Shown: positions 19,979 to 43,697 of the stretch, in pieces
Position numbering within the stretch: position 1 is the first letter of the stretch
Layout of the letters: every line of letters begins with the position of its first letter
Assembly: GCA_019400425.1 (NCBI GenBank)
Contig: JAFREE010000177.1
Span: 1 to 47,865 of the forward strand
Length of the DNA stretch: 47,865 nt
From: Hymenochaete sp. R1
Taxonomy: Eukaryota > Basidiomycota > Agaricomycetes > Hymenochaetales > Hymenochaetaceae
Direction: 5' to 3'
The notes under the pieces: generated by a model
Seen by the model: only the letters and a program-made list of their open reading frames with translations
The model's database searches: none
What the model was told of the DNA's origin: nothing
Translations under genes and position numbers: made by a program

Positions 19979-21782
19979 TCAAATCGATGTGGGACTATTG
20001 AGTTGGGCGCGCTGCAAGGGAAGAATGACCTTCTCAACGAAGCGCTTACTGATCTGGCTCTTCTTGAGTGGTTTCGTCCTTCTCTCCCTGTCATCCTGGA
20101 ATGACAAGCAGTTCAGGACCACGTCAGTGTACGCATAGCCCATCTTAGCCGGGAGCAGTCGGTTTGCCATCCGCTTGAGCATGTCGCTCCTTAGAGCATT
20201 CTCGTCGCGCTCCATTTGTTGGCAGAAGAAATCGTCGTCGCCTGGCCTGATGGCTTCAATGGTACGGAACCACAGTCCTCGCGCCCAGTCAGCACGGATG
20301 TACTCTTCCTTTTCTTCGTCCCAGTCGAATAGCGAACGCCAAAGCCCAATTTCGAAGAGGCATACCCCCAGACTATAAATATCGTCCTCCATGTCGTAGG
20401 CTGGTCTTTCCTCTTGCATGATATGCCTGGGATGATAGTAAATTCCTCCTCGGAGCATATCGTCGAAAGTATGTCGCTCCGTCCTCGAAAAATCCCATCG
20501 TGCTCTGTGAAAGCCTGCGAGATAAGGAGTCCCGAGATTATAATGCCCAGTAACGGGGTTCTTCGATGGTGCTCCTTCCATGACAACGACGGCATCAGGT
20601 CTGATCGCTTTATGCACCATGTCCACACAGTGAAACACGTGGATAGCTGTCGCAAGCTTGTGGGCAAAATTAAGTCGAGTATCGATAGAGTGGAAGTCGG
20701 TCCCAGTCGTCACGAGAAGTCTACGTAGAGTAACGGGAGTGTGATCATTAGGGACTTTGAAAACGAGATCATGCGAGCTTCCTCCATACGTCGTAGCGTA
20801 GCCACAACATTGAAGCATACCCACGTTCGCGTGCAAGTCGTTTCGTATCCCGTTGTCGGGGTCGTCTAACCCGTTTTTCTGATTTCTTTCGTCCAGAATC
20901 ATAGCAATGCGTCTGGTGTCTTCAAGGGCATTCGGGACTTCCATCGCACCTCTGAAGTCAATCAAGTGACCCTTATATTCGCCTTCCTGCACCATTGAGA
21001 AGTGCGCATGGTCGTCCGGGTCAAGGAGTTTGCCTCGAAGCTCCCCCTCAATGAATTTAGGGGTATCGTCCTCCTTGATCCTCTTCAGAGCCCTGGACAC
21101 GAAGCGCAGAACGTTATCGTCGAATTCGCTGTCCTATAAGTGAAGGTTGTCGGATATGGGAACAAAGAGTTGAAGTTCATTCCTGATGTGCTGGAGCTTG
21201 AATACGGCTTCCCGAACTGACAATCCGCCAACATATTGGTACCGGGTTGCATGGATGGTAAAGCGAAGAGTTCGTTTCGCCTTCTTATGAAGACGTTTCC
21301 ACTTTGTGATGATTGAGGCAACTGCAAACAACGAGAGATTTTGGCCGACGTGTCTCTGTCCGTTACTTTCTGGATTAGTTGAAGTATCTTTCTCGTCCGA
21401 TCCCGGGGAAGAGTCATGGGAACCAGAGGTCGAGGGCTCGGCTGTGGAGTCGAACAGGACTCTTCCTTCCCACGTCTTCAGCTCTTGACTCAGAGCTATG
21501 CAGTATTCGTCCCCCTTTTGTAGAAGGCCAAGTAGGGCTGCCTCTATCTCGTCTGCGTAAGTCGTCCGCTGTACGATTCGAGCATACATGCTTATGTCGT
21601 TGATCATCCGCTGTCCGAGAAAAAGAAGGGCGCTAAACTCATCGTCAGTGGTTTTGATGGCACGAATGAGTCTTATTGTCTTGAGAAATGTCTCCGTTAG
21701 CTGGATGATTGTTAGAAGCTCTGGTGGTTGCCAAGATGAGGATAGCGTTTGAAGAGATTATACAAGTAAACGTACCGGACAT
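19979..21782 (-). pseudogene. MLKL/HeLo-kinase-like pseudokinase, copy A, with one in-frame stop
   Basis: Layout: helical N-terminal region (residues about 1-100, starting 'MSELLTIIQLTETFLKT'), a Ser/Asp-rich linker (about 100-150), a second basic helical part, then a C-terminal kinase fold. The kinase motifs are all degraded: the VAIK position reads 'GHLIDFRG', HRD reads 'MVHKAIRPDAVVV', DFG reads 'YLAGFHRAR', while the structural F-helix 'DDIYSLGVCLFEIG' is kept. The first exon is only seven nucleotides (21776-21782), followed by a 55-nt intron (21721-21775), as in copies B and C. A TAG at 21134-21136 interrupts an otherwise open frame. Copies B and C have a leucine codon there, so this is a nonsense change, not an intron. 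It is divergent from the truncated kinase at 22460. Either it is a young pseudogene or this allele is null. Confidence 0.8.
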
Positions 21783-22459
21783 GTTGATGGGTTGATGTGG
21801 AGGGTTGGTGTTCCACAATAAAGCAGGGAGAGAGCCGGTGCTAGATACGGGGAGTTTTGATGAGTGTTAGCAACAGTATACACTGTATCCGATTATATGG
21901 CTCACTCAAACCTTCGAGCTTACTCTCTGGGCACCGAAATGAGGTGAAAGGATGTTATAGTCGTGCGAAGGTTAGGTAACTGGAGAACCTGAAGCTAATT
22001 CAAGTTTGCCGCCGTTTGGGCACCACGAGGACACACAAGAGCCCATAATTGTTCCCTTTCCGTGATCTCGAAGCGCACGAAGCGCTCAGGCCACATATAA
22101 TATGGCGACGGAGCGGAGGGAACGTGGCGAGACGAAACGGAAGCAAAAATTAGTCGGAGACAAAGGGACGAGGACAAGGGTACACCGAATCAGGACGTCG
22201 ATCGCTTTGAAGACCCCGGTCACCCCACCTCCTTAGGCCCGAGCACTCACACTACCACTGGCATGCTCAGCAACCAACCTTCGTGCCCAACCTTTTTCCA
22301 GTGCAGGACTTTGTTTGTGTCATGGGCACATTGCTCGCATATGCTCCGTCCCAAAGCACTTATAAGTAGGCATGAATCTCGATCGTGCTTCCCTCAGTGA
22401 CCACCTTCAAATTCCATCGATAACCTAAACTTGAACCTCATCAATTCGTTGCATGTCCG
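21783..22459. promoter_or_regulatory. Divergent promoter A between pseudokinase A and kinase A
   Basis: 677 bp. It contains CGGAAGCAAAA (22138-22148) and GAGACAAAGGGACGA (22157-22171), a pair also found between the B genes and, inverted with its gene pair, between the C genes. CCCATAATTGTTC (about 22043) is shared with promoter B. It is probably a bidirectional control region; binding factors are unknown. Confidence 0.5.
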
Positions 22460-23468
22460 ATGGCCGACAATCCAGCACCCTACCTTTTCTACGGTAAAGT
22501 TCTTTTATATTTTGATATAGGCGTGTTCTTATATTGTGTGGGAATAGGTCTTCAAGAGGATTACTCCCTTAACGTCATCACTGGAGCTCAACTCAGGCCT
22601 GACGGTCAAAGACTCGTGCATGGCGGAGCTCGCTCCGACATCTATTTGGCGCAGTACGGGAGAAGTGTTAGTCTTTTGTTATTGACAGGATTATGTTCTC
22701 ACAACGGAACCTACTTATTAGACTGTGGCTTTGAAAGTCGTGAACTCGAAAGCGTGCAGGAAGGCGGAGTATAGGGAAGAAAGAGCTGCAAAGCTTAACC
22801 AGTTGCGTGGATTATGTATCATTACCCTACAGCGCAAACTTACGCAAGGTTGTATCTCTGAAGTATTTTCGAAGGGAATGTTTTTGCTTGACACAGCTGC
22901 GCCACCCAAATGTTGCGAAACTCATTGGAATAATGAACGGCTACAAATCCTGTTCATTGCCCGTCTTGGTTTTCCACTACTACGACATGGGTAATTTACG
23001 TAGTTACACAGAGAAGGCGCTCTCCGCTCCTTTGAATCTCAAGCTGAAACTGGTGTGTCGGCTCTCCTTCGTGTCTATGGGGTCCCTCTAATCACCAGTC
23101 TTACCCACCAGCTAAAAGATGTTGATGTTGGCTTATCGTTCGGTGCGCCCTTTTACTCTCGGGCTGATCCGTGCTTGCGTGGGTTTGCTGACCTGAACGC
23201 CGGGTTGCTAGTGCATAGACGTAAATTCGTTCACAGAGACATCAAAGGCGTTAGTTTGTACCTTATCTAAATCAGCCTAAAGCTAACAACCCACTACTGA
23301 CAGAGCAATATTCTGTTGGAATGGAGCGAGCCTAAGTGCCGTCTTGTTGCAGCTATCTCAGATTTCGGATCGACGACGTCCATTGAGGATACGATAAAGC
23401 GAAGCTATGGGGTTGCGAATTCTACCGAAACCACGTCAGCCGCGTGGATGTGTCGTAAATATGGTTAA
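22460..23468 (+). pseudogene. 'HRDIKG' protein kinase, copy A, truncated in the activation segment
   Basis: Ser/Thr-type kinase paralogous to 28293-29636 and 36490-37850. Readable parts: 'MADNPAPYLFYG', nucleotide-binding loop 'GGARSDIYLAQYGR', 'VALKVV' (catalytic Lys), 'YFRRECFCLTQLRHPNVAKL', hinge 'VLVFHYYDMGNL', catalytic loop 'FVHRDIKGSN', 'SDFGSTTS' and 'RSYGVANSTETTSAAWM'. After 'AWM' the match to copy B stops: a short unrelated piece with a TAA (23466-23468) replaces the PPEF motif, and helices F to I are gone. One intron donor (about 22800) also lacks a G that copy B has. With no C-lobe a working kinase is unlikely. The next gene starts 100 bp downstream, so a rearrangement probably joined the two. 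It is divergent from pseudokinase A. Confidence 0.75.
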
Positions 23469-23567
23469 GATGAACCTCCGGAACACCGCGTTCTGGTAAG
23501 ACTCAAATAAAGTCGCGTTCGCAGCTTCAAGTTGCTTTTTGCCTGTCCATCGTTCTGCTACCCTACC

Positions 23568-24953
23568 ATGAACCCCACCATAAACCCCTCTTCTTCTCGG
23601 CCGTCCTCTCCGTCATCGCCGTCGACTCCGAACGAGGAACTGAAGCCCTTCGAAAAATGGTGGAGAGACCACTACGATATACTCAAACGGCATGGTTACG
23701 AACTTCGACCCCGATATCATCCAGACTGGTCACCTCCGTGGAAGAAGACCAACGAAAGCCGTCTTCTACATGAGGAAAACATTCCAAGCTGGGTACGTCA
23801 AGCTCAGCTATATTCCATCGCTCTCTCATCTCTCTTATCTCTCATATTACAAGTACAAGTCCACGCTAGATGCCATCCGACTTTCAGATGGTCAACGGGT
23901 TTTCCTCAAGCTCATTGAAGGTCATAAAGAAGAGTTAGCCATTCTCAACTTTTTCGCAGCCGAGGGGAGAAAAAACAATCTCCATAATCACACTGTCCCG
24001 CTCCTTGATTACTTTGATGATGAGTGTGAGGAGCCCCATTCCTTCATTGTCATGCCGGTGCTTCGCAAGCTCGACTCACCTGCTTTCATGTCTGTTGACG
24101 AAGCAATCGAATTTGTCAAACAGACACTAGAGGTGTGTTTTACTTCTGCTATCAGATGTTGCTATTCTCATCGCTCACCTCAGGGACTAGCTTTTATGCA
24201 CGAAAACAATGTTGCTCATCGGTGAGCTGGTTTTGCTTGGAATCTGCGCGCTCATCTGAAAATAAAACTCCAGTGATCTCGCTTTACTCAATGTCATGTA
24301 CGATGCCTCGTCAATATATCCTAAAGGTTTCCATCCTCTCAGTCCTAATTGGCTTCCTGATATGTCCAAGAAAGCAAAATACCTCCGAAGACGATCGACA
24401 AAGGGCATTAAATACTACTTCACAGACTTCGGGATTTCCGACATCTTCCCTAGTTTCGAAGCTAGGAAGAAAGTCCGGGGATTTACTTGTCAAGACAAGA
24501 CGGTTCCAGAAATCCGTGAGCACGCGCCATATGACCCATTTTGTGTGGATGTCTATACACTGGGAAATGTATACAAGGAAGTGTTGATTGATGTAAGGTC
24601 TTTTCGTTTCACGATATACCGAACAGCTATCTGACTTGCCTAAAGAAATACTCCAATATGGCGTTTTTGAAGCCTCTGGCGGATTCGATGACGCAGAAAG
24701 TTCCTGAAGCTCGTCCGAAGTCGCAGGAAGCAATGGAGGCCTTCCAGAAGATTATTGCGGAGCAGTCCTACGTTTCAAAGCGCTGGCGACTCAAATCCGT
24801 TGGATCTGAATATGCAAGCTCGGTCTTCCGTTGTATTGCTACGTGCGTCGACGAGGTAACGTATCAATCGACGCGCGTCTCTCGTAAGCTGCCCAATGTA
24901 CTTCGAGTAACTGATGTCTAATATTGCACACGTTAGATTTTTGGGATAAATAG
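23568..24953 (+). CDS. 'WRDHY' family protein kinase, copy 1
   Basis: Kinase-like protein of a family greatly expanded in Agaricomycetes. A Ser/Pro-rich start is followed by the family signature 'EKWWRDHYDILKRHGY' and 'ELRPRYHPDWSPPW', then 'STLDAIRLSDGQRVFLK' (VAIK-like Lys), hinge 'HSFIVMPVLRKL', catalytic loop 'NNVAHRDLALLNVMYDA', a family insert 'YPKGFHPLSPNWLPDM', 'KYYFTDFGIS', 'DKTVPEI' (APE-like) and 'DPFCVDVYTLGNVYKEVL'. HRD and DFG are intact, so it is probably active. Six exons; a phase-1 intron precedes a last tiny exon giving 'HFWDK' and TAG at 24951-24953, parallel to the WKKKRA and WKRRR endings of copies 2 and 3. It lies just downstream of the broken kinase A and, unlike copies 2 and 3, has no HGDLR kinase beside it. 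Confidence 0.82.
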
Positions 24954-25802
24954 GATTTGGGTTTTTGCTTAGAATGGACGCTGGTTCTCATCCGCTCTCG
25001 ATTCTTCGTGCATGCTTTGCTTATTTGCTATGATCTGCTTGATTTTGGTTTTTATATTGAATATGTATCTCTATCATGGACGCGCACGGCTCATATCTGC
25101 ATTCTCCCCATCTGTAATAAATCTGGAGTAGGATGATTCGCCAACTTCCATTCACTCTACAAGGTCTTGTGCATCCTCCGTGCGATATGTTCTTACATAT
25201 TGCTACTAAGTTACTTCTTGTTGTAGACGCACCATGATTCCTCATAGTACGAGTGAGGACTCCAGGAAATTTTTGGACTCGTATGGCAGCTAGTCCTCTT
25301 TGAAAGACAGTAAAGTAAACAAGTATTCAACTCGAGTTAGCATAAACCATCTGATGGTAGCCCAGATGATAAAGTGACGATACTCCGTACGCAGTCAAGT
25401 TGTAAAAAAACGGATCTTCGACCGAAGAACGATCGAAGTTGTACGTAAAGGCAATCGCCCAGCTGTTAGTTCTGCATCTAACTAATACGAAGAAACGCAA
25501 GTAGCCAGTATGCGGTTCAGCTTACAATTGTGCTCTTCAAAGATCGTCTTTTCTTGGTTCTTGGTTTATCAATCGTAAGATTCGTGGGACCAAACTCCCC
25601 GTCCGAGTTAACCGCCATCCCCGGAGATCCGCTGAACAAATACAGTAGAAACGGCAAACTTCAAGTTGGATACACTTCATGGCATGCCTATCAACATACG
25701 GAAGGAGCGGAGATTACAAGAAACGTGATACATTCAATGGGCAAGAAAAAAAGAAGAAGAAAAGAGTCAAGAAGCTAACGACAACCGAACACTAGTGTAC
25801 CT
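24954..25802. other. Intergenic stretch between convergent genes
   Basis: 3' flanks of the WRDHY copy 1 gene and of pseudokinase B. From 25611 it carries the left edge of duplication unit B. No gene supported. Confidence 0.4.
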
Positions 25803-27624
25803 TCAGATGGATGCCGCGCTACTGAGTTGGGCGCGCTGCAGCGGAACGATGACCTTCTCAACGAAGCGCTTGCTGATTACACTCTTTTTGAGCGGCTTTG
25901 TCCTCCTCTCTCTGTCATCCTGGAATGACAAGCAGTTTAGAACCACGTCAGTATACGCAAAACCCATCTTCGCCGGGAGCAGTCGGTTTGCCATCCGCTT
26001 AAGCATGTCGCTCCTGAGCGCATTCTCGTCGCGCTCCATTTGTTGGTAAAAGGCATCATCGGTGATTTCTTCTACATGTTCGATAGTCCGAAACCATAGC
26101 GCCCGAGCCCAATCTGCACGGATATATTCCTCTTTCTCTTCGTTCCAACTGAACAGCGAATGCCAGAGTCCGATCTCGAATAGACATACGCCGAGGCTAT
26201 AAACATCGTCCTCCATGTCGTAAGCGGGTCTTTCGTCCTGCATGATATGTCGTGGGTGATAGTAGATCCCTGCTCGAAGTTCTTTGTCGAATGTGTAGCG
26301 ATGCGTGTCAGAATTGTCCCACCTCGCCCGGTGGAAACCCGCAAGATAAGGCGCGCCGAGGTTATAATGACCAGTGACGGTATTCTTCGACGGCAAACCT
26401 TCCATAACGATGACGGAGTCAGGTCTGATGGCCTTGTGGACCATATCAACGCAGTGGAAGACGTGGACGGCAGTCGCAAGTTTGTGGGCAAAGTTGAGTC
26501 GGACATCTATGGGATGGAACTCGGACCCAGTCGTCGCGAGCAGTCTACGAAGAGTGATCGGGGTGTAGCCTTTGGGTACCTTGAAAACCAGATCATGCGC
26601 GCTTCCGGTTTGGGCGTACCCACAACACTGAAGCATGCCGACATTGTCATGCAAGTCGAGGCGGACGGTATTTTCGACATCGTTTCTCTGATTTCGTTCG
26701 TCTAGGAGCATAGCAATACGTTTCGTATCTTCGAGAGCATTCGGGATCTTTCTCGAACTTCGAAAGTCGACTAAGAAGCCTTGGTAGTCACCATCCTCTA
26801 CTATAAGAAAATGTGTGTCCTTATCAACATCGAGCGTTTTTCCAATTAGTTCTTGGGTGATGAATGTGGGCGTGTCGGCCGAATGTATCCTCTTCAAGGC
26901 TCTCGCTACAAAGCATAGCACACTGTCGTCGAAATCGCGATCCAAGAGGTGAAGGTTGTCCGCAATGGGGACGAAGAGTTGCAGCTCGTTTCTGACATCT
27001 TGCAGCCTCTGTATAGCTCCTTTAACCGTGAGCCCCCCAATGTACTGGTAATGAGTGGCGTGAACAGTAAACCGAAATGTTTTTCTCGCTTTGCGATACA
27101 GAACTCCAACTTTACCTATCACCAAGGCCAGGTTCGAGAGTGATGGGCTATGTCCGCTCCGATGATTGAGCTTCGTGTTGTTACTCGGCATTGATGTCCG
27201 AGCGACAGTGTCATCCTTTTCATCGGCTGTGGGGGGACTTGAAGAGGAATTACGAGACGCTGACATTGACGCTGGAGGGTTTACTGCTCCATCGGATAGG
27301 ACTCTGCCCTCCCAGGTTTTGAGCTCCTGGTTAAGCACAATACAATACTCGCTACCTTTACGAAGAAGATCGTGTAAAGCTGCGTCAATTTCGTCTGAAT
27401 AGTCTGCTCGTTGTACGATTCGAGCGTAGATGCTTATGTCGTTGATCATCCGCTGGCCGAGGAAAAGAAGTGCGCGGAATTCATCATCGGAGGTTTTGAT
27501 GGCACAAATGAGCCTTATTGTCTTGAGAAATGTCTCCGTGAGCTGGAAGACTGTTAGGACCTCTGGTGGTTGTCAAATTGAGGCTATGGTTCCTAGAGAT
27601 TACATGAGTACACTTACCGGCCAT
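25803..27624 (-). CDS. MLKL/HeLo-kinase-like pseudokinase, copy B (intact)
   Basis: 588 residues. Starts 'MAEVLTVFQLTETFLKT'; a seven-nucleotide first exon (27618-27624) and a 55-nt intron (27563-27617) match copies A and C and fix the start. Residues about 1-90 are predicted helical ('LFLGQRMINDISIYARIVQR', 'LNQELKTWEGRV'), then a Ser/Pro/Asp-rich linker, a basic helical part and 'LQDVRNELQLFVPIADNLHL'. The kinase fold follows. VAIK is replaced by 'GFLVDFRS', HRD by 'MVHKAIRPDSVIV', DFG by 'YLAGFHRAR', while 'TPITLRRLL' and 'DDVYSLGVCLFEIG' keep the fold. It should bind partners or sense a signal, not phosphorylate. Helical N-terminus plus dead kinase resembles MLKL and fungal HeLo-kinases; membership of the HeLo family itself is inferred, not shown. 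It is divergent from kinase B, 668 bp away. Confidence 0.85.
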
Positions 27625-28292
27625 AGCGGGGCAGAGTAGAAGATAACACTGGTTCCTGTTGAGGTTTGTGTGGTTCCGTTGTGCCACTAAAAACATCTGC
27701 CTCCCTCCGGTTGAAGTTTATATGAAGGGCGAAGAGAAAAGGCGCTTAACGACTCGGATGCGAAGAAAGGGACGATATAACTTTAACATCGTGTGATACG
27801 TTAGGTAACGGATGAAGTCGAAGCCAATTGAATCGATTTCTGAGATCACAGGGACCCACATGAACCCATAATTGTTCATACGATTGCGGTTGCCGAGCGC
27901 TACGAGTGCTCAGGCCAGAGATGTGGCGGAGGAACGTGCTGGAACGGAAGCAAAACTGGATTTCAATGGGAGCAAGAGACAAAGGGGACAACAACGACTG
28001 CCATTTTTAGATGCCGATCGACAGTCATCGAGACCCCTGCCACCGTGCACACTTCGATCCCTTTGTTCAAGTTCCGAGTCGCCTTCGTTTCCAACAGTCT
28101 TAGTCTACCAACCGGCCATGGACGAAGTGTTGCAACGTTTCTCCGACGCTTTATTACAGATGGCAGATGAACATATAAGCTCTCTTTCGCATCAAACTAA
28201 TTTGTCCTCGTTTTATTTTCCTTAACGCGCTTTGCAACAACTTTGAACTTTTTTTGAACACTATACAAAGTTATTCCGGTGCTAACTCCCAA
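27625..28292. promoter_or_regulatory. Divergent promoter B between pseudokinase B and kinase B
   Basis: 668 bp, clearly related to promoter A. Shared blocks are CCCATAATTGTTC (about 27866), CGGAAGCAAAA (27945-27955) and GAGACAAAGGGGA (27976-27988). No other gene fits here. Confidence 0.5.
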
Positions 28293-29636
28293 ATGTCCAA
28301 CGGCGTCATAAGCTACCTATTTAACGGTACGTGCTAGCTCCTAAGGAGTACCCTCCTCGCGTTCGTTTACTGATTCGTCATTGCGATAGGATTGAAGCAA
28401 GACTACACTGTCACTGTCCTCTCAAAGGCTGAACTTCAGGACTTAGGGCTTTTAAACCCCGGTGAACGCTCGGATATCTACCTGGCTCGGTATAGAGGAA
28501 GGGTGAGACTCCATCGATGTTTCCGTGCCACACTGTCTCACGCAGCGTTTTGTCAAGGTTGTCGCTTTGAAGCTCATAAGCCCTGAGCTTGGCAGGATAG
28601 CGCATTCGAGGGCCATAAATACGTCAAAGCTGAACCAGGTTTGTCTCTACCATTACGCATGTTTCAGTGCTACGAATTTTGATGATTAAAAACGCAGTAT
28701 TTTCGCCGAGAATGCTATTCTTTGTTAAAGTTACGCCATCCCAACATCGCCGAGCTCATTGGGATCGTAGACGGCTATAAATCCTGTGCACTCCCCGTCT
28801 TCGTATATCGATATTACGACAAGGGAGACCTCCGGCGCTACGTAAGAAAATATCCAAATGCTCAACTTAAGGATAGATTGAAGCTGGTACGATATTTCTG
28901 TTCGCGTATGGTTTCTTGTACTTATTAACAATGGCTTAAAGTTGCATGACGTAGCGTCCGGACTGGCATTTGGTGAGTCTTTTAAAACCCGTTCCAACCT
29001 GCTATTTCTGATGATTCGCCTAGTACATCAGAAGGGCTTTGTCCATAGAGACATTAAAGGAGTGCGTCATCATTTTACTCTGTGTATTTGATATTATGCA
29101 TTTGACATTCACGTTGCTTTAGAGCAACATATTACTAGGAAGAAATGGCGACATGAGACTTCCCATTGCATGTATCGCGGATTTCGGCTCGACTGTCTCC
29201 ACCGAAGATGCTGTTAAGAGAGCGTCCGGCGTCGCCAACTCTACGGAGACAACGTCGCTGGCGTGGATGCCGCCCGAATTCATCACGGCCGACTATAACG
29301 TATGCTTTAAAAATGCAACGCCTGCGTGCGACGTGTGGTCTTTTGCCTGCATTTGTATTGAGGTAAGATACCAGCCGCGTTTTCAGTGACCCAGAATTGA
29401 CAACAATTGCGCTTCAGGTCATGTCAGACCAGGACCCTTGGGGCAAGAGAAGCGATGCCTCAATCGTGCGGGCTCTTAGAAGCTCCAACCCAGTACCTCC
29501 TCTGCCAAAAATGATTGTCGAAAATCAAGGCCTATTGCATATCGTACTCCCTTGCTTTGAAAGACTGGCATTTCGTAGATTGCCCGCAGATACGGTGAAG
29601 TATATGCTTGAACAGTACCTTGCGAGGCTACAGTGA
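28293..29636 (+). CDS. 'HRDIKG' protein kinase, copy B (intact)
   Basis: Compact Ser/Thr-type kinase, with little outside the kinase fold. It starts 'MSNGVISYLFNG'; then 'DYTVTVLSKAELQDLGL', a loop with few glycines 'GERSDIYLARYRGR', 'VVALKLI' (catalytic Lys), 'YFRRECYSLLKLRHPNIAEL', hinge 'PVFVYRYYDKGDL', 'LHDVASGLAF', catalytic loop 'FVHRDIKGSNILL', 'IADFGSTVS', activation segment 'GVANSTETTSLAWMPPEF' and F-helix 'CDVWSFACICIEV', ending at 29636 after 'YMLEQYLARLQ'. All catalytic residues are present. About eight exons with short introns. The overall style (RDIKGSN, GVANSTETTSLAWMPPEF) recalls tyrosine-kinase-like/RIPK-type fungal kinases. Its divergent pairing with a pseudokinase suggests the two proteins act together. 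Confidence 0.85.
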
Positions 29637-30696
29637 GTACCATAGGCATTTGTTTTCGGATGACCACCAAGCTCTGATGAATCGTTGATTCCGAATCCTC
29701 ATTCAAAAAAGAGTTCAAATGCATTAATTTAAGGGCCCGTTCAATCGCGCTTTCAAGTTTCACACCTCATGCCTTTGACATCGTCGTCTCCTTCTCCTTG
29801 TTTCCCTGTTCTACTCTAATTATTTCACATCCCCTCAACCCATTGTCCCGTCATTGATCAGTGTATTCAAACCCCTTTGGTTGCACATGGGTACATGCCA
29901 TGTTGAAATTCCTCAGGCTCGGGCACACGTATTTTCGACTGTGCCACATCAAGAGACGTTATTCGAGTCGGACGGCTTCTTTAAACCGAACAGCGTAATA
30001 CAAGACTTCAAAACTTACAATACAACGCAGAAACGCGATTGAGGAATGAGAACAATGTCGCCTTTCTTCCTTAGCAGAGGAAGTTGTCTTCGATGATTTC
30101 CAATTGTGGGAACCGATCAGTTGCCTACCAGCGAGTGTTTTCACACTCGCTTTCGGACGTACTCAAGTACTGATGCATAACATCATCCCGTCTATCATAA
30201 CTGTTCAAGGTATCAATAAGAGACTTTGAGAACAAGAGTGGACAAAGAAAGTTTCGGAGGTCCCCAGATGCAAATGGTAGCGAGACGTTCAGATAAGAGC
30301 GCCGATGTTGATAATACTAGTCGTTGAGGTATGTGCGCCTTCATCTGTATAGGGGACGCTACGGAAATGGATTCGGCTTCGGGTCGTGTGAACAATTACT
30401 TTCAGTAATCTACCAAATTGAGCTACGTAACTTTGGTTTTTAGGGACGCTTTGAGTTTCACAATCTCCCAGTAACGCAGATGTAGAAGGTATTGAATACA
30501 ACATAGTACGGAATCATAATGAATAATGATATACAAATGCAAAATAATACAATGAAAATACTCATGGACTGAGGTGTGCGGGGGGGGGGGGGACAAAGAA
30601 AGAAAGAAAAATCGAGTATTAAGCAGCAAATGCGTGTAGGTTTCGTTGTATGGGTGTCAGATAGTGTCCCCCGGTATCCATCGTGCAATGAGGATG
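29637..30696. other. Intergenic stretch between convergent genes
   Basis: No gene supported. It holds a 13-G tract at 30580-30592 and the 3' flanks of kinase B (plus) and of the HGDLR kinase 1 gene (minus). Confidence 0.45.
30580..30592 (+). repeat. Homopolymer G tract
   Basis: Thirteen consecutive G near the 3' end of the HGDLR kinase 1 gene; the exact length is uncertain. Confidence 0.8.
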
Positions 30697-33670
30697 CTAG
30701 TTTCCACTTGTCGATGAGTCCGAGTTGGTTGCAAATGATACTATAGTCAATTCTGAGATGAGGGAATGAACACTTTCGAATCTCTCTCCTACAGGATTCC
30801 AGCATTTCGTCATGACTCGCCAGAACCTATCCGGAACATTGAGGATATCCTGAGACGCAGGAAATGCGCCTTGTATGATTTCGAGACGAGCTGTGGCGCA
30901 CGATTGCCCTTCAAATGGTTCTCTACCACACAAGATCTGTGCGGAAGCTTCAGTTACCAACTATGTCAAGACAAAAGAAACCGTACCTCTAGCATCACAC
31001 ATCCAAATGCATAGATATCTCCTTGCGTTGATACAAGTGACGACCGAACAAGTCCTTCGCTCATTTGACCTGTCTCCAATTTCTCGAGCTTCACGATTAG
31101 TTCCACGGATAGCCAACGCTCGTTTGTGACCTGCTTCCTGAGCACCCAGTCGTCGAGATCTCCACTGTCTTCCGCGTTCTCTCGGTCCTCTTTTGAGCAT
31201 CCAAAGTCACACAGAATTGCGCGGGGGCAATTATCGACAATTCGTATAAGAACGTTGTCCTGCAGAACAGTAAGAGTATGACGATTCACAAATGGAATTT
31301 GTCTCACCGCTCGAAGATCTCCGTGGGCAATAGGAGGTTGCATTCCATGCACTAAGCAAGTCAGCCACAAAGAACTGCTGGAAATAATGATTAACGTACT
31401 TGAGCTCAAACCAAAGGCGATATCTTTAAGCTATGAAGCGAACGTGAGCGGCAATGGAATCCATCTCAATGGCGAAAAAAGCGTACAAAATCAAGGCCAG
31501 TGGCTCTTTCACCGTTCAGCTCGTCCTTTATGTATTGCTGAACAGGCCCGAAACAAAGTTCCGAAACGAGGCAAGGATAAATCTGGGTTTCTTGAATGAT
31601 GCAGTATCCAACAAGAGGAAGGATGTGTTGGTTTTGACTTTGATGTAGTTTCCACCATATTCTAGCTTCGTTCTCGAAACGCTAAGAATCGGTTTCCGAG
31701 TCAATAAAGTCTGTTCAGCCGGCTTTTTGCAAGAGTTAACTTACTTTCCACATTTGGGATTTGTTATGAGGTCTCTTCACGGCATACTAGGAACCTATCA
31801 ATGTCAAAGTCACAGACGAGAAGATAGCCATACCGATTTTGTATTCATGCGATTGGTCATCGCGAAAACCGAGCCCGACGAACCCTTCCCTTTGCTTTCC
31901 ATCTCCGAAAACTCGAGATCCGTTATCTCTCGGATGCCAATCGCAGCCATTTCTTCGAGCACAATAAGCGACGATCGTGCTTCATGAAACTCCAGAACTC
32001 ACTTTCCGAAAGTATTGCTTTTATTGATCCATCTCCTACAGCTATTTCAGCATTCAAAACGGTCACATGTGGAAATGTATCAATACCGATCATGTGTTGT
32101 AAGTCATGCACTGTAGTCAGTAGCTGTTTCACAGGCTCATCTTTCTCTGACAAGCAAAATGGGTTGAACAATCCCAGAAGTAAGAGACAAAAGCTCACTA
32201 ACCAATAGCTTGAGTTTCATTATAAAGGCGTTTTGGCACCGACACATTGTCGATATCTAGGAAACATTAGCCAGCCGAAGACACTAAAGAACAGAGACGT
32301 ACAGTCGTCGCCTATAAGCATTTCAGGCATGTCAAGCTTAACCCAGATATCCTAAACCGGATCACTCAATACGAAATTTTATGACTCAGATGGACAATAC
32401 TCACACAGCAACGCTTTTTAATGTCGACTAATAGAAACTGGATTGAGCGAAGCTTGAGCGCGAGCTCTACGTGATCAGTCCCTGCTTCGTCGTCTTTATA
32501 TTGACAGACATGATCACTGTAAATATCAAGAAGAAACACAACCCTGATTCCCTTTTTCAGAATCATCTTTCATAAATGGAGCGAATAAACGCACGGTCTC
32601 ATGTCCTCGAAAAGTCGCTTGAACGAAGGTCCATCCTCAAGCTTCAACATGTCCCGCTTACAAAGTTCCATTAGACGTCTGCAGATGAGACACGATAATC
32701 GAATATGATCTTTTAATGTCTTTGCATTTGGGAAGGAATCTAGCTGTGAATACATGTGAGCAACGTGAATTTGTGATTTGAGAATGTCTGACCAAATCCT
32801 GGACTCGATCGTAAGCATAGATCAACTTCTCACCAAGAAGTTTTGTATCAGATTCAGGTTCAGACACGGCATCCACTTTGGAAGGATCTTTAAGGAGAGT
32901 GAGTTTGGCGAATGGATCTGTAAAAAACGATGACAATATTATTCAAATGTTCTTTACTTTCGTCGCTGTTGTTCCACCATAATTGAAATTCTTTCTCCTT
33001 GAATGCCAGAAAGTTCCAGTCTGTTTTGATAGAATGCGGAGAGAATACTAGTGCCATGGTATCAATAATAGAACAAGATTCCGATTTATGCGAAACAACT
33101 CACACTGAATTGTCAATTTCCATTGGCTTCCGGGAACTGGCGTATGCGGACTAAATGTGCGTCTCGCTATGCTTCCGGGATATCTGTCTCGCACTATAGA
33201 CGTTCGCTAAATGCGAAGTCGGCCTCCGATTAAGCAACGAAGCTAATGATAAGCTAACCTTGGATGTTTTTTGGCTGATAGCTATCGAGTCTCGGGCTTG
33301 ATTTATCCCGTCCGCAGATTTCCTAGACGCGGGAAGGGCGTACTTGAGTTTCTTCCGCAGCTTGGAGAGACCACGCTCCTCTAGATCTAAAAGCGCTAAC
33401 GTATCCTCGTATTCCTCTTTTGCTCTGCGAAGATTGTTAGTCAGTCGTAAAGTCCGGGTAGGTAATTTAAAGCTCTTACATTGTCATGTGGTATTCCAGG
33501 TCCATCCTTTTTGGGTCATTACGTTCACCGCAGACTTTGAGGCCTTCAACATAATCTTTAAATGCTGCAGCGTATTCAGACATCATTCTTTTTTTCTGCG
33601 AAGTGTCTGAGGGTAAGAATAAGTAAGCCTGAGCAGAATGGAGACTCGCTTGTTCGCGGTAGGAGACCAT
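30697..33670 (-). CDS. 'HGDLRADN' protein kinase 1 with long helical N-terminal region
   Basis: The C-terminal kinase domain is complete: P-loop 'GKGSSGSVFAM', 'YAVKRP' (catalytic Lys), 'ENEARIWWKL', 'ILPLVGYC', 'CLVSELC', catalytic loop 'IAHGDLRADNVLI' (Asp kept, Arg of HRD replaced by Gly), 'ILCDFGCS', long activation loop, 'NERWLSVELI', 'GDIYAFGCVMLE', ending 'NSDSSTSGN' at 30697. The N-terminal part is spread over many small exons (31980-33670), rich in charged helix-forming residues with Cys-ended helices; exons such as 'KLRSIQFLLVDIKKRC' and 'DIWVKLDMPEMLIGDD' align in order with those of kinase 2. The start is uncertain: the frame is open to 33922 without an ATG, and 33670 and 33586 are the first in-frame ATGs. 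It is divergent from WRDHY copy 2. Exon borders in 31980-33400 are approximate. Confidence 0.72.
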
Positions 33671-34021
33671 AGCGGCGTCAGAATGTGCTTGAATATAGGT
33701 ATTGCAGCTTTGGCCGGCTGAGTAGAGGCCGGTGTCGGGAGGAATAGAGAGTGAAGAGAAATGCTCAAGGACAGAAATGGATCCATCCTTATGAATACTC
33801 CAGCTATCTCGATGTACGATGTAATTGTGTTCATCGGTGGTGGACAAGGACAACGCTGTCGCAAAGAGGTCAAAGAGCCCGAAAGAGAACAATGAGAACA
33901 GGACATCGCCAGTGGTAGACAACGCGTCGCGATGTGAGATTATGTAATATGATGTACTGAGTTGCTCGGTCCTTTTATTTCGAGTTATTTGACGGGTTCA
34001 GTTTTATCTTTCCTTCGAACT
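33671..34021. promoter_or_regulatory. Divergent promoter between HGDLR kinase 1 and WRDHY kinase 2
   Basis: About 350 bp or less, depending on the start of the minus-strand gene. The minus-strand frame stays open through it to 33922, so part may be coding in an unspotted first exon. Confidence 0.35.
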
Positions 34022-35390
34022 ATGACTTCAACTCAAACGACCAATGAACTCCCACCGTTAAAAAACGAGCTTGGTCCTCACGAAGAGTGGTGGAGAGACC
34101 ATTATAACACACTACGAGACTATGGCTACGAGCTGAGACCTCGGTACCGTCCCGAATGGACGCCGCCTTGGAAAGGAACCAACAAGCATCGCTTCGAGTT
34201 TGAGGAGAGCGTTCGAAGTTCCGTGCGTGTGCAGCTATTCTCTGTTTCGTTTATGTCTCATGAATAAATACAGCATAAAGCGACGTTGGATGCCAAACGG
34301 GTCTCTGACGGCAAACGCGTCGTCCTTAAACGTGTTGAGAGGCATAGCCATGAACATGCCATCCTTGGATACTTTTCGGACCAATCCCGACAGGACGATC
34401 CTCAAAATCACTGTGTCCCGCTCTACGACTCATTCACAGATAATTGCGAGGGGAAGCACATATTTGTTGTCATGCCTCTTTTACGCACGCTCAACTCTCC
34501 CGACTTCAAATCCGTTGACGAGGGCCTTGATTTTGTCGACCAGTCATTGCAGGTGCGTCTAAGATATCATGGACTGTTCATGTGTAGCTAACTTGAAGAT
34601 TTAAGGGGCTAGTATACATGCATAGTCATAATGTTGCTCATCGGTGTGTTACTCATCTATCATGAACTATTTGGTTTTGTATTCTGACAGAGTGTCCAGA
34701 GATCTCGCTCTCCTAAATATCATGTTCGATGCCTCTGACTTGTATCCAAAAGGCTTTCACGCTCAGAAGAATTCCTTTCTTCCTGACATGTCTGGATCCG
34801 CGCCATTCCGTCGTCGGCGTTCGGCACGCGTTAGATATTACTTTACTGATTTCGGAATATCCTCAAAATTTGACAGTGTGGAAACTCGCGAAGAAGTTCG
34901 CGGCGTGTACGGTGCAGACAAGACTGTCCCCGAAATATTGAACAACTTCTCATACGACCCATTCCCGGTCGATGTTTATACCTTGGGTAATGTTTTCAAG
35001 GAAGTGCTAATTGACGTATGTGACCTTCCAACTTAAGTTCATCGGTTCAAACTGAAATGACGCTCGAATTCCAGAAATACTCCAACATGGCATTCCTAGC
35101 GACACTTACGGACAAGATGACACGCGAGGACCCGCGTTCTCGTCCCGGGGCAATTGAATCATTTGAGGAGTTCAAAACGATTGTTGCTAAGCAGTCTTAC
35201 GCTACGAAACATTGGCGCTTGGAACCAGTTGGGTCTGGGCGAGCCTCATCTGCGTTTCGGGCTATGGCTAGTTGCGTTGATGAAGCGTTCTATCAACTAG
35301 GTTGTCTAGCTTGTGAGTATCTCCAACTTGCTTCAGGAATATCTATAAATGATTTTTAATGTTCTAGTTTGGAAGAAAAAAAGAGCATGA
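34022..35390 (+). CDS. 'WRDHY' family protein kinase, copy 2
   Basis: Intact member. It starts 'MTSTQTTNELPPLKNEL', then 'HEEWWRDHYNTLRDYGYELR' and 'PRYRPEWTPPWKGT', 'ATLDAKRVSDGKRVVLK', 'IFVVMPLLRTLNSPDF', catalytic loop 'NVAHRDLALLNIMFDAS', insert 'YPKGFHAQKNSFLPDM', 'RYYFTDFGISSKF', 'ADKTVPEIL', 'DPFPVDVYTLGNVFKEVL', and a tail with 'KQSYATKHWRLEPVGSG'. A phase-1 intron precedes the last exon (35368-35390), which encodes 'WKKKRA' and TGA. This short aromatic-basic end is shared in kind with copy 3 and could act in targeting; that is a guess. Catalytic Lys, HRD Asp and DFG are present. Closest relative in the window is copy 4. Confidence 0.85.
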
Positions 35391-36489
35391 CCATAATATG
35401 CAACCAAATTTCGGTATAACGTTTCGTATTTCATCCAACTCTGGGAGCAATTTACGCTTTTTTATGTCTTTATTGCTGTGTCTTCTGATCTTTTGTTTTG
35501 ATTATATGCTATCGTTAAGTGTTCTATTCATGCTTTGCTACGCAGTTGTTCGGCCTGCGTTTTGTGTATTCTTATACGTTTTTGTGAATCCTTACTCCGC
35601 AAGCGACCGCTTTCCTTTTCAAAATAGCTCTAGAATGTAAGATATCAAGGATCACTGGCATCAAGGTACCGGAAACATCTGTCAAGGCATGCTTTTAAGA
35701 AGCGATTAACGCGCTGCAGTTGAGCGAGCTCGCTGCACCCGTTTTCGAGTCTGCTGACGAAACAATTATCATGGTCCGGCGAACACCAAAGGTACATCGC
35801 ACACTTCTCAGAAGCTACAAGTCTATAATAAGACTCAAAGTTGGGGTCTCATATATATGCACAGTCACAATGTACCTCACGGGTGGATAGTGCTTTGCAT
35901 TGGCCAATGGAGTTCTCATTCCTTCTTTCCACGCAGTACGACGTACGGCGTACCATCGACATCCCTAAAGATTCCGTCCCTTGATGCATTTACACCTTTC
36001 TGATAAAGTGAAATGGGGAGTAAGGGGGGAACCCGACATCCCCGAGGCTCCGCTGGCCAATGCGCGGGAACGGGAATGCAGAGCTCCGAAATCAACAACT
36101 CGTTTGTGCCTTGGGTCCTGGCTCTTGTTCTCTTCCAATTTGCTACTATTCGTCGATAGGGATTGACGTGTACTGTCACAACTCGCAAGTCAACATTATC
36201 AAATAATAGAAGCATCTGTTACCATATCTTAAACGTAAAAGACGCGAAGAATCCTACCAACCATTCGCCTCATTCGCCTCCAATCAAGTCGATAAGAGCA
36301 TTCTCACAAGTCTCCATCGGATGGCGATCGTGCGGATGGTGTGCCGGGACATTCGGAGTGAGTTGGAACTTGTGGAGGGACGTTGTCTTTCATGCATAAA
36401 ATCTAAGGCTCGTCTTTATAAAAAGCGATAACGCACACAAAACTCTCCGGTCGAAAAAAAAGAAACGGGGAAGTGGTAAGGATTACTTA
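35391..36489. other. Intergenic stretch with a WRDHY kinase relic
   Basis: No complete gene. Apart from the relic at 35735-35890 it holds the 3' flanks of WRDHY copy 2 and kinase C. A 99-codon minus ORF (35916-36215) has no recognised motif. Confidence 0.4.
35735..35890 (+). pseudogene. Relic of a 'WRDHY' family kinase (catalytic-loop exon)
   Basis: About 35848-35888 translates as 'GLIYMHSHNVPHG', which matches 'GLVYMHSQNVAHR' of copy 3 and 'VYMHSHNVAHR' of copy 2. Just upstream, 'FESADET' recalls 'FKSVDEA' of the preceding exon. No open frame links them and the HRD position is lost. It is a decayed fragment of a fifth member. Confidence 0.5.
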
Positions 36490-37850
36490 TCAACTCAAAC
36501 ATTCCTCGATCGAAGCGACTGCAGTGTCTGCGTTTAGCCTGTAGTGCATGTCCTTTACTCTGAAACAATGCCGCACAAATTTCCATACATTGTCATCGAG
36601 CTGTTCTGGCCGAGAGGGTCCCGTCCCTTCTTCCAAGGCCCTCAAAATCCTCAGCGAGGTCATATCTTTTCCCCATGGATCCAGACCGGTCATTGCCTTG
36701 ATCATCCGGATAAGAAGCATTCAAATATCTAGATAAAACAGAACTTACCTCGATGCAAAGGCAGCCAAAAGACCACATGTCGCTCGAAGTCGCGGCATTC
36801 CTGTAGTTAACGACACCATTGATGATGAATTCTGGTGGCATCCAAGCCAAAGAATGACCTTGGGTAGAGTTTGCGACTCCATAACGTTGCTTCAGCGATT
36901 CTTCAGTCACACCAACAAAAGTGGTGGAGCTCAAATCTGAGATGTACGCATTGGGCGGTTCTCTTGCAGAACGGACCTCAACCAATATATTACTCTAAGT
37001 GAATTTTAATATGAAAACAAGGGAATAGATATACAACCACTCACGCCTTTGATGTCTCTATGAATCATTCGAAGCCTGTGCACTAATATCACATTAACCA
37101 AAGTTCGCGAACGGTAGGTCTTGAAAATACATGTCTCACTGTCATTCAGTCCCTTCGCAACATCCCGAAGCTATATTGCGAACAGTCAGAGATTACTGAC
37201 TTCGTATGAGGATATACACTTACAACGTGTAATCTGTAGTTCGTACTTAGCAATGGATAGGCACTAAGGAAAGTGCGGAAATCCTGCCCGTTGTAATAAC
37301 GTTGTACCAGGACCGGCAACCGATAATTCCCATATCCTTCCATAACGCCGACCAACTGTGAAGTATTGGTCTTCTCACGCATACAGCGAAGGGAGCAGAA
37401 GCACTCGCGAAGAAAGTACTAGATTCAAGCTTCAGTCGTTTCAACCATATGAAGTAGACATTAAACTAACCTGCTCGAACTTCTTCGCTCGTTCAGGATC
37501 CTTAAGTGCTTCTTTTCTGAGAGACGCACTGACAAGCTTAAGAACCACGCTCTGAAATTACTGCGCTCAGATAAAAAGCGCCTCAAACCCGTCTGGGATA
37601 CAGGTAACGAACCTGGGAACTTCTATACGTGGCTTGAAATAAGTCACTTCGACTGCCACTGTGAATGGAACTGTCCGGGCCAGAGATTTCTTCTGGGGTG
37701 ATGAGTTTGACTCCGAAGTCTCTTTGCAGCTCTGGCACAAGTTGAATGAGGTTAACTTCCAATGCTTGAACAGGAGCGCATATACTTACCGTGGACTATG
37801 GTATGTGTGAACTCCTCCTGGTTAGAATCTGTTTGTTGCTGATGCTGCAT
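36490..37850 (-). CDS. 'HRDIKG' protein kinase, copy C (DFG changed to DLS)
   Basis: It starts 'MQHQQQTDSNQEEF'; then 'LQRDFGVKLITPEEISG', 'SGSRSDLFQATYRSS', 'VVLKLV' (catalytic Lys), 'YFLRECFCSLRCMREK', 'LPVLVQRYYNGQDF', 'LRDVAKGLND', catalytic loop 'RMIHRDIKG', then 'NILVEVRSAREPPNAYISDL' where DFG reads D-L-S, activation segment 'GVANSTQGHSLAWMPPEF', F-helix 'SDMWSFGCLCIEV' and an end at 36490 after 'VASIEECLS'. Exons match copies A and B one by one. The metal-binding Asp is kept but the Gly of DFG is replaced by Ser, so activity may be altered or low. It is divergent from pseudokinase C, 574 bp away, giving a third pair inverted relative to pairs A and B. Confidence 0.82.
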
Positions 37851-38424
37851 TGCAGAAGCGTTTATAGTGATAATCCTTATCTAGAGGACACATATTGATT
37901 AGTACCATATTTAAAGTCGCGGTATTTCGGGTGAGAACTTTGGCAGGTCATTGTGCACAAAGTCGGCGTGGTGAAGGTAAAAAAAGACAGCTCGATTCGT
38001 AGCCGATGCGATGAGTGTTCGGGCCGTTGATCGACGCTCCTTTTTTGGGTGCTCTTGTTCACCCTCTCCCGAAGCTTCGTCCCTTTGTCTCTTGCCACAT
38101 TTTCGACATTTTGCTTCCGCCTCGTTCTCGACACGTTGTCTTCTGCATCTTCGATCTTTTGATCTGTTGGCTCGGTTGTATTAACATCTCCCGATTTTTG
38201 TGGATAATTATGGACGAATATGGGTCCCAGAGGTCCCTCTGTTTCCGATAAACACCATCCTCCGAACTCATGTTCACACCGCATTCTTGGCTAGACGCCC
38301 CTTCCGCGTCAGTATTAACTGTGAAGCGTTGCGCTGCTTATTGTTCCCTCTTGCGACTTCTCCTACGACAAGAAACAGCGCTTCGCACCGGTTCTCTTTC
38401 TTGTGAAAGACGTTAAGCGTGACT
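37851..38424. promoter_or_regulatory. Divergent promoter C between kinase C and pseudokinase C
   Basis: 574 bp. On the minus strand it carries the same two blocks as promoters A and B, in the same order relative to the genes: CGGAAGCAAAA (complement of 38109-38119) and GAGACAAAGGGACGA (complement of 38077-38091). The rest has diverged, so the blocks look selectively kept. ORFs here (for example 37877-38284) are shadows. Confidence 0.5.
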
Positions 38425-40237
38425 ATGCTTGGTATGCATCTACGTTTTTGAAGCGCTTTCGGAAGTTTATTATTCATCTTCAGATCCATTGTCCACCATA
38501 CAAGTAATAGACACTCTACTCAAGACCATAAAATTTATTCAGTCGATAAGAACAAACGACCAGGAGTTCAGCGCGCTTCTTTTCATAGGCCGGAAGCTGA
38601 TTTACGATATTAGCGTGTACGCGCGAATTATTCAGCGATCAACTTATCCAAACGATGAAGTCAAAGCCATCCTTCAAGATCTTCTACGCCAAGGACACGA
38701 CTATTGTATTGCCCTGAAGATTGTGCTTGGAAAATGGGAGGGACGCTTTCGGGACGACAAAGCTCGAACCAACAAATTGAACGTCGATTTCGATACCGAC
38801 GTTTTGACTCAGCTTAACGACGAGAAGAACTGGGATTCTGCTTCGTACTCCGGCCCCGCGGCAGAAGAAGCATCGGCGCATAACACATCCAAAAGGACAC
38901 TTCTACGAGCGTCCAAGCTCGTTACTTTATGCAGGCAATGGCTTGGAAGGACATGGAGGATTCTTCGTCTCGCCGCCCATTCAAGTTATTATCAATTCTC
39001 CGGGGAATTGTCAGTCATGGGAGCACTGCAGAAGCTAAAGGATGTACGAGACGAACTGCAACTATTTGCTCCTATTGCCGACAATCTTCACCTCTTGGAA
39101 CGTACTGACGACAACGTGCTACGCTTCGTCGCAAGAGCAAAGCAGCGCTTATCCGCCTCACAAGAGCCAACCCTCATTCCGGAATCCGATTGCCCAACCG
39201 GAAAATCCGTCGACAGGGATCCACATAATCACTTTGAAATCCTGGAAGAAGGGAAGTTCAAGGGTTGCCTCGTCGATTTTCGTAGTCACGCGAAAATTCC
39301 AAACGCACTGGAGGACACCAAACGTATCGCTCTTCTTTTGGACGAGAATAACCAACAAGACAACGAAATGGAGAATGAAACTTTGCCGAACCGTCATTCC
39401 GACGTAGGCATGCTACGTTGCTGCGGGTACACGGCACCCTTTCTCGCAAACATGAATGAGCTCGTTTTCAGAGTCCCCAGAGGCCATACTCCAGTCACTT
39501 TACGGAGACTTCTGGAAACGGAAGGATCTGATTTCCACCCCATCGACAAGAGGTACTCTTTCGCTCTCAAGCTTGCCACTGCTGTCCACGTTTTCCATTG
39601 CGTCGAGATGGTTCACAAATCCATACGCCCGGAATCGATCATCGTGATGCAGGGCACGCCGGAAACGGACACTGCGGGACATTTCCAGCTCGGGACACCT
39701 TACCTCGCCGGTTTTCATAGAGCACGCTGGGATTATTCACTCACCGAGAAATATACATTCGACGACGACATGAAAGGTCGTATTTATCACCACCCGCGGC
39801 ATGTCATGAGCGATAAACGACCTGCGTACGAAATGGGGGACGACATTTACAGCTTGGGCGTATGTTTATTCGAAATCGGACTTTGGCGGTCGATGTTCTA
39901 TTGGAACGAGGAGCAGCGAGCATTTCTCATCGATGATTGGGCGAGGGAAGTGTTTGTAACGAAGGTCATCCTGGAAAACGAAGGAGGTGATGGACGAATG
40001 ATAGAAGTGGAGGACAACAACTTTCGGTGCGAGATTCTCAAACGACTAGTCAAACGACTTCTTCCAGCAAAGATGGGATATGCGTATACTGACGTCGTCC
40101 TCAACTGCTTGAACTTCCAGGACGACAGGGATCGTCGCTCAAAGGCACTCGAGAACAGCGAGACTTCTAAGCGCTTCGTAAACGAGGTTCTCATGGAGCT
40201 TCGTCGAGCCAAGATTCGAGTCACAGAAGGAATTTGA
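38425..40237 (+). CDS. MLKL/HeLo-kinase-like pseudokinase, copy C (intact)
   Basis: 586 residues. The seven-nucleotide first exon (38425-38431) and 52-nt intron (38432-38483) give a start 'MLDPLSTIQVIDTLLKT'; without them the frame has no matching N-terminus. Helical N-terminal region ('LFIGRKLIYDISVYARIIQR', 'LKIVLGKWEGRF'), an acidic/Ala-rich linker, a basic helical part and 'LKDVRDELQLFAPIADNLHL'. The kinase fold lacks catalysis: 'GCLVDFRS' for VAIK, 'MVHKSIRPESIIV' (about residue 378) for HRD, 'YLAGFHRAR' for DFG; 'DDIYSLGVCLFEIG' is kept, as is the C-terminal 'YTDVVLNCLNFQDDR' shared by all three copies. It is most distant from A and B, so its pair with kinase C is probably an older duplicate. 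It is tail to tail with HGDLR kinase 2, only 131 bp away. Confidence 0.86.
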
Positions 40238-40368
40238 TAGGCTTGTTGTAATACATCATTGATTATAATATAAATTTGCGTACGTGATATAAGGTTATTA
40301 AAACTGAAGAAAGAGTCGAAGTAGAAAATCGAAGTGGGAAAGATAATAATTTAAGTCTATAAGAAGAG

Positions 40369-43300: not shown

Positions 43301-43519
43301 AATTGACCGCCGAATGCAAGACAACAAAGGCAAAACCTACCATTTTCTCCATCCGTCAATCTCCTCTCGCGTTTTGTCTTCAAGGCCCGCTAGAAGGCAT
43401 CTTTGTCGTGCAGCCTCCGACTCGATCCATATGTAGCTCAATTCCTCGGTCTAAGGCAGTTTGGGACAGCTTGATTGATAGGTGAGTGGGTAACTTACTT
43501 GACGCTTCAGGGAGGGCAT
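40369..43519 (-). CDS. 'HGDLRADN' protein kinase 2 with long helical N-terminal region
   Basis: It starts 'MPSLKRQTEELSYIW' (ATG at 43519; first intron with GTAAGT donor). The N-terminal 350-400 residues are helical and charged: 'KTKIEEKEASGWLEVAKFLM', 'VDMALGRRLADCAGMTCQIA', 'LVYLLENCAKELNLLALD', 'LEALCRLLSRVAIRC', 'DALRSIGHVNLVIENGR', then a Ser-rich stretch. The kinase domain follows: 'IGSGSFGKVFAMV' (P-loop), 'YAVKQP', 'KEARIWKKV', 'ILPLVGFCWLG', 'SELCQNIKSYLGG', 'IAHGDLRADNILV', 'VLCDFGSS', 'NERWLAKELAVNL', 'GDIYAFGCVFLE', ending 'MQDLCYY' at 40369. Catalytic Lys, Asp and DFG are present; the Arg of HRD is Gly, as in kinase 1, so activation may not need activation-loop phosphorylation. 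About 14 exons; some borders in 41750-43000 are uncertain. It is divergent from WRDHY copy 3, 178 bp away. Confidence 0.75.
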
Positions 43520-43697
43520 TTCAGCGCGTGCGGAACCAAAGAAAACTCCAGTAGGTCAGGTTCGGATAGGCGAGAGACTCAAGGAGCGTGAAATGGAAAG
43601 AAATAATGTGAGGATCCCTCATTGGGAGCAAAGAATATATAAGCCAGCCTGAGGACGGTATCCATGGGACTGACGCTGGCCGTGCTGGCCAACAACA
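43520..43697. promoter_or_regulatory. Divergent promoter between HGDLR kinase 2 and WRDHY kinase 3
   Basis: 178 bp separate the two start codons. TATATAAG at 43636-43643 lies about 55 bp before the plus-strand ATG at 43698 and supports that start over the ATG at 43866. Confidence 0.45.

Follow-up and report, generated by a model that had tools for sequence, protein, structure and literature searches.

Do a dead pseudokinase and a live-looking kinase that repeatedly lie head to head in a fungal genome work as one unit? This question is raised by a 47,865-bp stretch of Hymenochaete sp. R1 (contig JAFREE010000177.1, hereafter C87), for which a preliminary description had reported three such gene pairs. 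The window that we analysed is the entire contig, in a genome of 27.8 Mb and 336 contigs. Gene models were built in this analysis from the sequence, and we denote the kinase family of the pairs as K, the pseudokinase family as PSK and a second kinase family of the same locus as W. The explanation that we tentatively favour is a two-gene cassette of K and PSK, divergent across one shared control region, with signalling from kinase to executioner.

Four divergent gene pairs

The three pairs on C87 (A, B and C) were recovered where they had been reported and all are divergent (head-to-head), with ATG-to-ATG gaps of 677, 668 and 574 bp, respectively. A fourth pair, D, was identified on contig C326. 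This pair is highly diverged, PSK D and kinase D presenting 39% and 33% identity to the B copies, and its gap is 708 bp long; all four gaps span 574-708 bp. All four recognised K genes sit in divergent pairs with a PSK gene, and the K-paired PSK genes represent four of the six full-length or near-full-length PSK genes. Intact frames in both halves were found only in pairs B, C and D. The K-PSK junction has been kept in the four copies and the outer neighbours are different.

Searching the genome with PSK B yielded seven places: PSK A to F and a fragment on contig C107. With kinase B, we obtained 51 matches (the counts of this search are lower bounds for large families), of which nine fall in the three pairs of C87 and two in kinase D (C326); the remaining 40 come from other contigs, with the scores of more remote kinases. 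The assignment of kinase D to K rests on exon structure, intergenic module and position taken together. Kinases B, C and D each possess eight exons with matching boundaries, and this argument is weakened by a scan of seven other kinase loci, three of which presented the HRD/HGD motif and one of these three an apparent intron at the same place. The best matches of kinase D were a kinase on C34 (47.2 bits in one stretch) versus kinase C (44.7 bits in one exon) and kinase B (40.2 and 26.5 bits in two exons).

Amino acid identities between PSK copies are 73% for A-B, 77% for A-E, 52% for B-C, 39% for B-D and 32% for B-F, and those between K copies are 55% for A-B, 40% for B-C and 33% for B-D. Synonymous divergence (dS, NG86 method) between copies is saturated or high, from 1.9 to 3.9 where defined, and non-synonymous divergence (dN) among PSK genes ranges from 0.15 to 0.77, which suggests that the intact PSK genes are likely under purifying selection. 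The PSK tree places A as sister to E with B next, and a grouping of D and F, which both have long branches, receives modest support (88/94); the tree of K genes does not resolve the branching. The sister placement of A and E suggests that PSK E was probably once paired with a kinase that it has lost or from which it has moved. These comparisons agree with the earlier view that A and B stem from one duplication and that C is much more diverged (PSK 73% for A-B versus 52% for B-C), and neither the identities and dS nor the PSK tree place pair C among the products of the recent A/B duplication.

The PSK fragment of C107 belongs to a partial copy, in inverted orientation, of the sequence flanking pair C (C107:1-8078 versus window 39822-47850). 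The PSK breaks off at the position corresponding to window 39822 and no match to kinase C was found on C107. The PSK end and the neighbouring kinase are 87% identical between the copies, and the W gene 70%. This copy may be a segmental duplicate, a divergent haplotype or an allelic copy.

A conserved module in the four gaps

When read in the direction of K, all four gaps present CCATAATT, then CGGAAGC 79-98 bp on (start to start) and then ACAAAGGG/AAAGGGAC, collinear and on the same strand. Words common to all four gaps number nine of length 7, five of length 8 and two of length 9, relative to shuffle means of 0.096, 0 and 0, and the observed number was never reached in 500 dinucleotide shuffles. 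As a strand control, reversing gap D left no common 7-mer and reversing both C and D left one.

The search patterns were derived from these gaps, so that their matches there are given and the result is their rarity elsewhere. Across the genome, CCATAATTN{60,90}CGGAAGC was found five times, four of them in the gaps (reversed-pattern control: two), and CGGAAGCWAAAN{5,35}AAAGGG seven times, again four in the gaps (control: two). The first element, CCATAATTNTYC, presented 22 matches (four in the gaps) versus 17 for its control and is therefore not specific alone. The complete three-part pattern was found in the four gaps only, among eleven sequences, some overlapping (213,894 bases, both strands counted). 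With a relaxed version of the module, one match arose in 20 mononucleotide-shuffled windows versus three pairs in the real window. Upstream of PSK E (600 bp) and PSK F (800 bp), neither strand contains any of the module words. Gap D has little besides the module in common with the other gaps, and the simplest reading of this is that selection acts on the module. The presence of the module in all four gaps and its absence at the lone PSK E and F make it quite probable that K and PSK behave as a co-regulated cassette.

Alternatively, it is possible that one ancestral divergent pair was passively duplicated again and again in a fast-evolving kinase cluster, its layout being kept by descent, in which case the two proteins need not cooperate. 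The close similarity of copies A and B (PSK 73%), the C107 copy of part of the pair C flank (inverted, 87% over 2.1 kb) and the many duplicated kinases of the cluster are consistent with such hitchhiking. Yet four K-PSK junctions survive with their module while dS is saturated or high and the outer neighbours differ, and pair D, only 33-39% identical to B, retains little but the module in its gap. We consider passive hitchhiking rather unlikely.

Kinase and pseudokinase domains

Kinases B, C and D retain the VAIK lysine and the glutamate of alpha-C, together with HRD, the asparagine of the catalytic loop and the aspartate of DFG. DFG itself is present in B and D and reads DLS in C, the APE motif reads PPE in B and C and APE in D, and the glycine loop of K is degenerate. 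Judged from these motifs, B and D resemble active kinases of the tyrosine kinase-like (TKL) type; C deviates by its DLS and A by the missing C-lobe. The best relatives of K with solved structures include SYK, Eph, ROCO4 and CTR1; the protein search with K comprised the best 120 of 211 matches and covered few fungi.

In our models, the first exon of the PSK genes is tiny (A, B, C and E, 7 nt; D, 10 nt; F, 4 nt) and the intron after it is of phase 1. Our motif test identified the PSK products as pseudokinases, with a kinase fold but without the HRD aspartate and other catalytic residues. Kinase A terminates at WMCRKYG directly after the activation loop, and since the modelled start of the next gene (W) lies just 99 bp on, no C-lobe fits there. 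Unless assembly errors are involved, pair A appears decayed in both halves because PSK A has an in-frame TAG and kinase A lacks the C-lobe and has a non-GT donor. The proposal that each pair joins a dead pseudokinase to a live-looking kinase therefore holds for the missing catalytic residues of PSK and for the intact kinase B, but not for the interrupted PSK A or the truncated kinase A, and DLS qualifies it for kinase C.

The DUF7580 proteins of ascomycetes, which in some cases carry HeLo domains, are distant relatives of PSK, whose similarity to the family stays below Pfam membership. Scores against DUF7580 (PF24476) were 23.8 bits for PSK C, 22.5 for PSK D and 15 for PSK B, with no match for PSK F and a gathering cut-off of 27 bits that none reached. 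With hhalign (99.9%), the pseudokinase half, together with the last part of the helical region before it, was aligned to HeLo-DUF7580 relatives, the HKx.../xGFxxxR motifs recur in both groups, and the pseudokinase half is the part conserved across fungi. A pseudo-activation loop R-x(3)-[ST]-x-[ST] after an LAGF motif was found in 10 of 11 close relatives and in 1 of 18 distant ones. The N-terminus of PSK is predicted to form a helical bundle, and intact copies of PSK retain a helical N-terminus; an MLKL-like layout, with an N-terminal helical bundle followed by a dead kinase domain, is plausible on these models. Genome scans with PF24476 and PF14479 gave no match here and none in the controls either, and are uninformative. 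Scans of viral and prokaryote contigs did not reveal any PSK relative.

A candidate kinase-to-executioner mechanism

In the explanation that we favour, the TKL-like kinase K and PSK would be transcribed divergently across the shared control region and expressed together. Once triggered, K would phosphorylate the pseudo-activation loop of PSK, and this would release the bundle, which would then damage membranes, as in the two-gene cell-death clusters of fungi and in RIPK3-MLKL. Drawn as it is by analogy, this mechanism taken by itself is doubtful. Its role would likely be non-self recognition, or antiviral or antiparasite cell death. A more complete version appears unlikely: a necroptosis-like phosphorylation relay of basidiomycetes, in which an executioner made of bundle and pseudokinase would be activated by a stand-alone kinase, both genes would be co-induced from one conserved bidirectional promoter module, the cassette would have been multiplied as a whole, and the W kinases would be alternative activators. 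If true, fungi would possess, in a kinase gene tied to a pseudokinase with this MLKL-like layout, a route nearer to the RIPK3-MLKL signalling of animals, and the cassette and its promoter module would offer a concrete handle for finding and testing such signalling.

As in RIPK3-MLKL signalling of animal necroptosis, PSK presents a predicted bundle followed by a pseudokinase, and the TKL-type kinase K is a candidate activator. The two systems differ in that sequence comparison did not reveal any homology between the bundle and MLKL, that K possesses little beyond its kinase domain (314-325 residues), and that K and PSK are divergent neighbours. What remains of the RIPK-MLKL analogy made earlier is a plausible layout and ascomycete relatives that in some cases carry HeLo, but no HeLo or MLKL homology of the bundle by sequence. 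Relative to HeLo-DUF7580 proteins (PF14479 and PF24476), the pseudokinase half aligns and motifs recur, whereas PSK reaches at best 23.8 of 27 bits and its N-terminus is without a HeLo match.

In the fungal clusters het-S/nwd2 and HELLP/PNT1, according to the portions of the articles available to us (PMC12881547, PMC10197012), a putative executioner gene adjoins that of an activator, and the putative executioner PSK is likewise encoded beside its candidate activator K. On the same portions, K-PSK differs in that the head-to-head partner is a protein kinase in the four pairs rather than a NOD-like receptor (NLR), and in that signalling would involve phosphorylation rather than amyloid templating. 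HELL domains also occur in proteins with kinase or pseudokinase domains, and PSK similarly unites helical-bundle and kinase-like domains in one protein; it has a kinase partner gene, however, and none is described for HELL proteins in the available portion of PMC12881547. Partial texts further indicate that MLKL-like N-termini are abundant in basidiomycete NLRs (PMC9815663) and that the reviewed fungal HeLo-type executioners are NLR-triggered, often via amyloid templating. In agreement with the preliminary description, which knew of no account of this gene pair, none was found in the open-licence literature searched, to the extent of the text available (subscription literature was mostly outside its scope).

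Several results weigh against the cassette with executioner signalling, and they concern the N-terminus of PSK, the history of the pairs and the linkage seen in another genus. None of the eight PSK N-termini matched any Pfam family, HeLo (PF14479) included, hhalign of the N-terminus alone with three ascomycete-type N-termini gave a non-significant probability of 0.5%, and Foldseek with the N-terminal model returned 89 matches at E ≤ 10 and none at E ≤ 0.001. A comparison with PDB sequences gave no match below E 0.24, and MLKL and HET-S were not among the 50 Foldseek matches listed, which excludes nothing. HeLo homology of this region is thus without support from Pfam, PDB sequences or hhalign.

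The lack of support for N-terminal HeLo homology (Pfam, hhalign) and the conservation of the pseudokinase half across fungi would also fit a PSK that regulates K as an allosteric activator, scaffold or decoy, and is not a membrane executioner. Pseudokinases such as JAK JH2 and the plant decoys regulate kinases or act as decoys for them. Nevertheless, intact PSKs keep their helical N-terminus and some relatives of the same pseudokinase bear HeLo domains; we find this role improbable.

Regarding the history of the pairs, neither PSK E, whose frame is open up to the contig end, nor PSK F, also an open frame, has a K partner, and PSK E (C326:370520-372276) lies head-to-head with a W kinase, 532 bp apart. 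Upstream of PSK F, a 712-residue open frame is found on the opposite strand. The decay of pair A belongs on this side as well, as does the common ancestry of the pair copies, which do not constitute four independent events.

W kinases and relatives in Sanghuangporus

The closest named relatives are Sanghuangporus proteins, in protein searches that covered few fungi. In the annotated proteins P0003 and P0004 of S. baumii and S. vaninii, a W kinase is followed by PSK in a single protein, and P0002 of S. weigelae is PSK alone. P0003 and P0004 are either true fusions or neighbouring genes merged by annotation, and indicate linkage either way. The sole PSK linkage seen in another genus is to W and not to K. 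Among the matches listed, the nearest Sanghuangporus protein to K is P0024 (ACEPAF_125, Sanghuangporus sanghuang), whose best single match in our genome is on C28 (40.1 bits), two exons of kinase B scoring 28.6 and 26.9 bits, jointly higher. P0024 may or may not be the orthologue of K. Its tag, 125, is far from the PSK tags in sister species (ACEPAI_4405, ACEPAH_4140), a weak hint that K and PSK would be unlinked in Sanghuangporus if P0024 is the orthologue.

We searched for W in our genome with the first 333 residues of P0003. All 29 exon matches fell on the contigs of the PSK cluster, namely C87 (four genes), C107 (two) and C326 (two), and the position and orientation of W relative to PSK are variable. 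These 29 matches, the two Sanghuangporus gene models that join W to PSK and the head-to-head arrangement of W with PSK E raise the possibility that PSK and W form the unit that matters, K being accessory or a later addition. However, the placement of W varies whereas K is head-to-head with PSK, across the module, in every one of its four pairs. The Sanghuangporus models may be annotation merges and P0002 is PSK alone, and C309, the contig of PSK F, presents no W match. The probability of a PSK-W unit appears low. Overall, the suggestion that the paired proteins act as a unit gains from the diverged pair D and from a module present in four gaps and missing at the lone PSK E and F, but loses from PSK E and F without K, the decay of pair A and the W linkage in Sanghuangporus.

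Features and surrounding sequence

Table 1. Coordinates of kinase, pseudokinase and module features (window positions unless a contig is named).
Feature	Position	Strand	Remarks
PSK A	19982..21782	minus	exons 21776-21782 + 19982-21720; premature in-frame TAG 21134-21136; probable pseudogene
PSK B	25803..27624	minus	intact, 588 aa; exons 27618-27624 + 25803-27562
PSK C	38425..40237	plus	intact, 586 aa; exons 38425-38431 + 38484-40237
PSK D	C326:366141-367841		39% identity (PSK B genome search)
PSK E	C326:370577-372274		72% identity, gene cut by contig end (PSK B genome search)
PSK F	C309:3677-5362		34% identity (PSK B genome search)
Kinase A	22460..23468	plus	cut off after activation loop, no C-lobe, intron 3 donor non-GT in model; probable pseudogene
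Kinase B	28293..29636	plus	intact TKL-like kinase, 8 exons, 314 aa, VALK/HRDIKG/DFG
Kinase C	36490..37850	minus	8 exons, 325 aa, HRDIKG, DLS replaces DFG
Kinase D	C326:363987-365365	minus	head-to-head with PSK D (PSK D start C326:366074)
Cis-module, pair A	22043..22169	plus	CCATAATT ... CGGAAGC ... ACAAAGGG
Cis-module, pair B	27866..27986	plus	intergenic
Cis-module, pair C	38079..38213	minus	intergenic
W-family kinase	23637..24792	plus	approximate, exon-match span; adjoins pairs A and B
W-family kinase	34067..35221	plus	approximate, exon-match span; adjoins kinase C
W-family kinase	43914..45068	plus	approximate, exon-match span
W-family kinase	46687..47841	minus	approximate, exon-match span; contig end

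Rfam and tRNA scans of the window gave no match. A further kinase family that is repeated beside the pairs reads HGDLR instead of HRDLK and lies at about 30697-33900 and 40369-42350 of the window and at L016:1376-2622 (approximate open-frame spans). The segments 5299-6568 and 8703-9980 of the window present 73% identical DNA, and the one open frame tested there had no Pfam match. Finally, an open frame on the minus strand at 42-656, near the contig end, presents an Argonaute N-terminal domain (ArgoN, 31.1 bits for a cut-off of 30.9).

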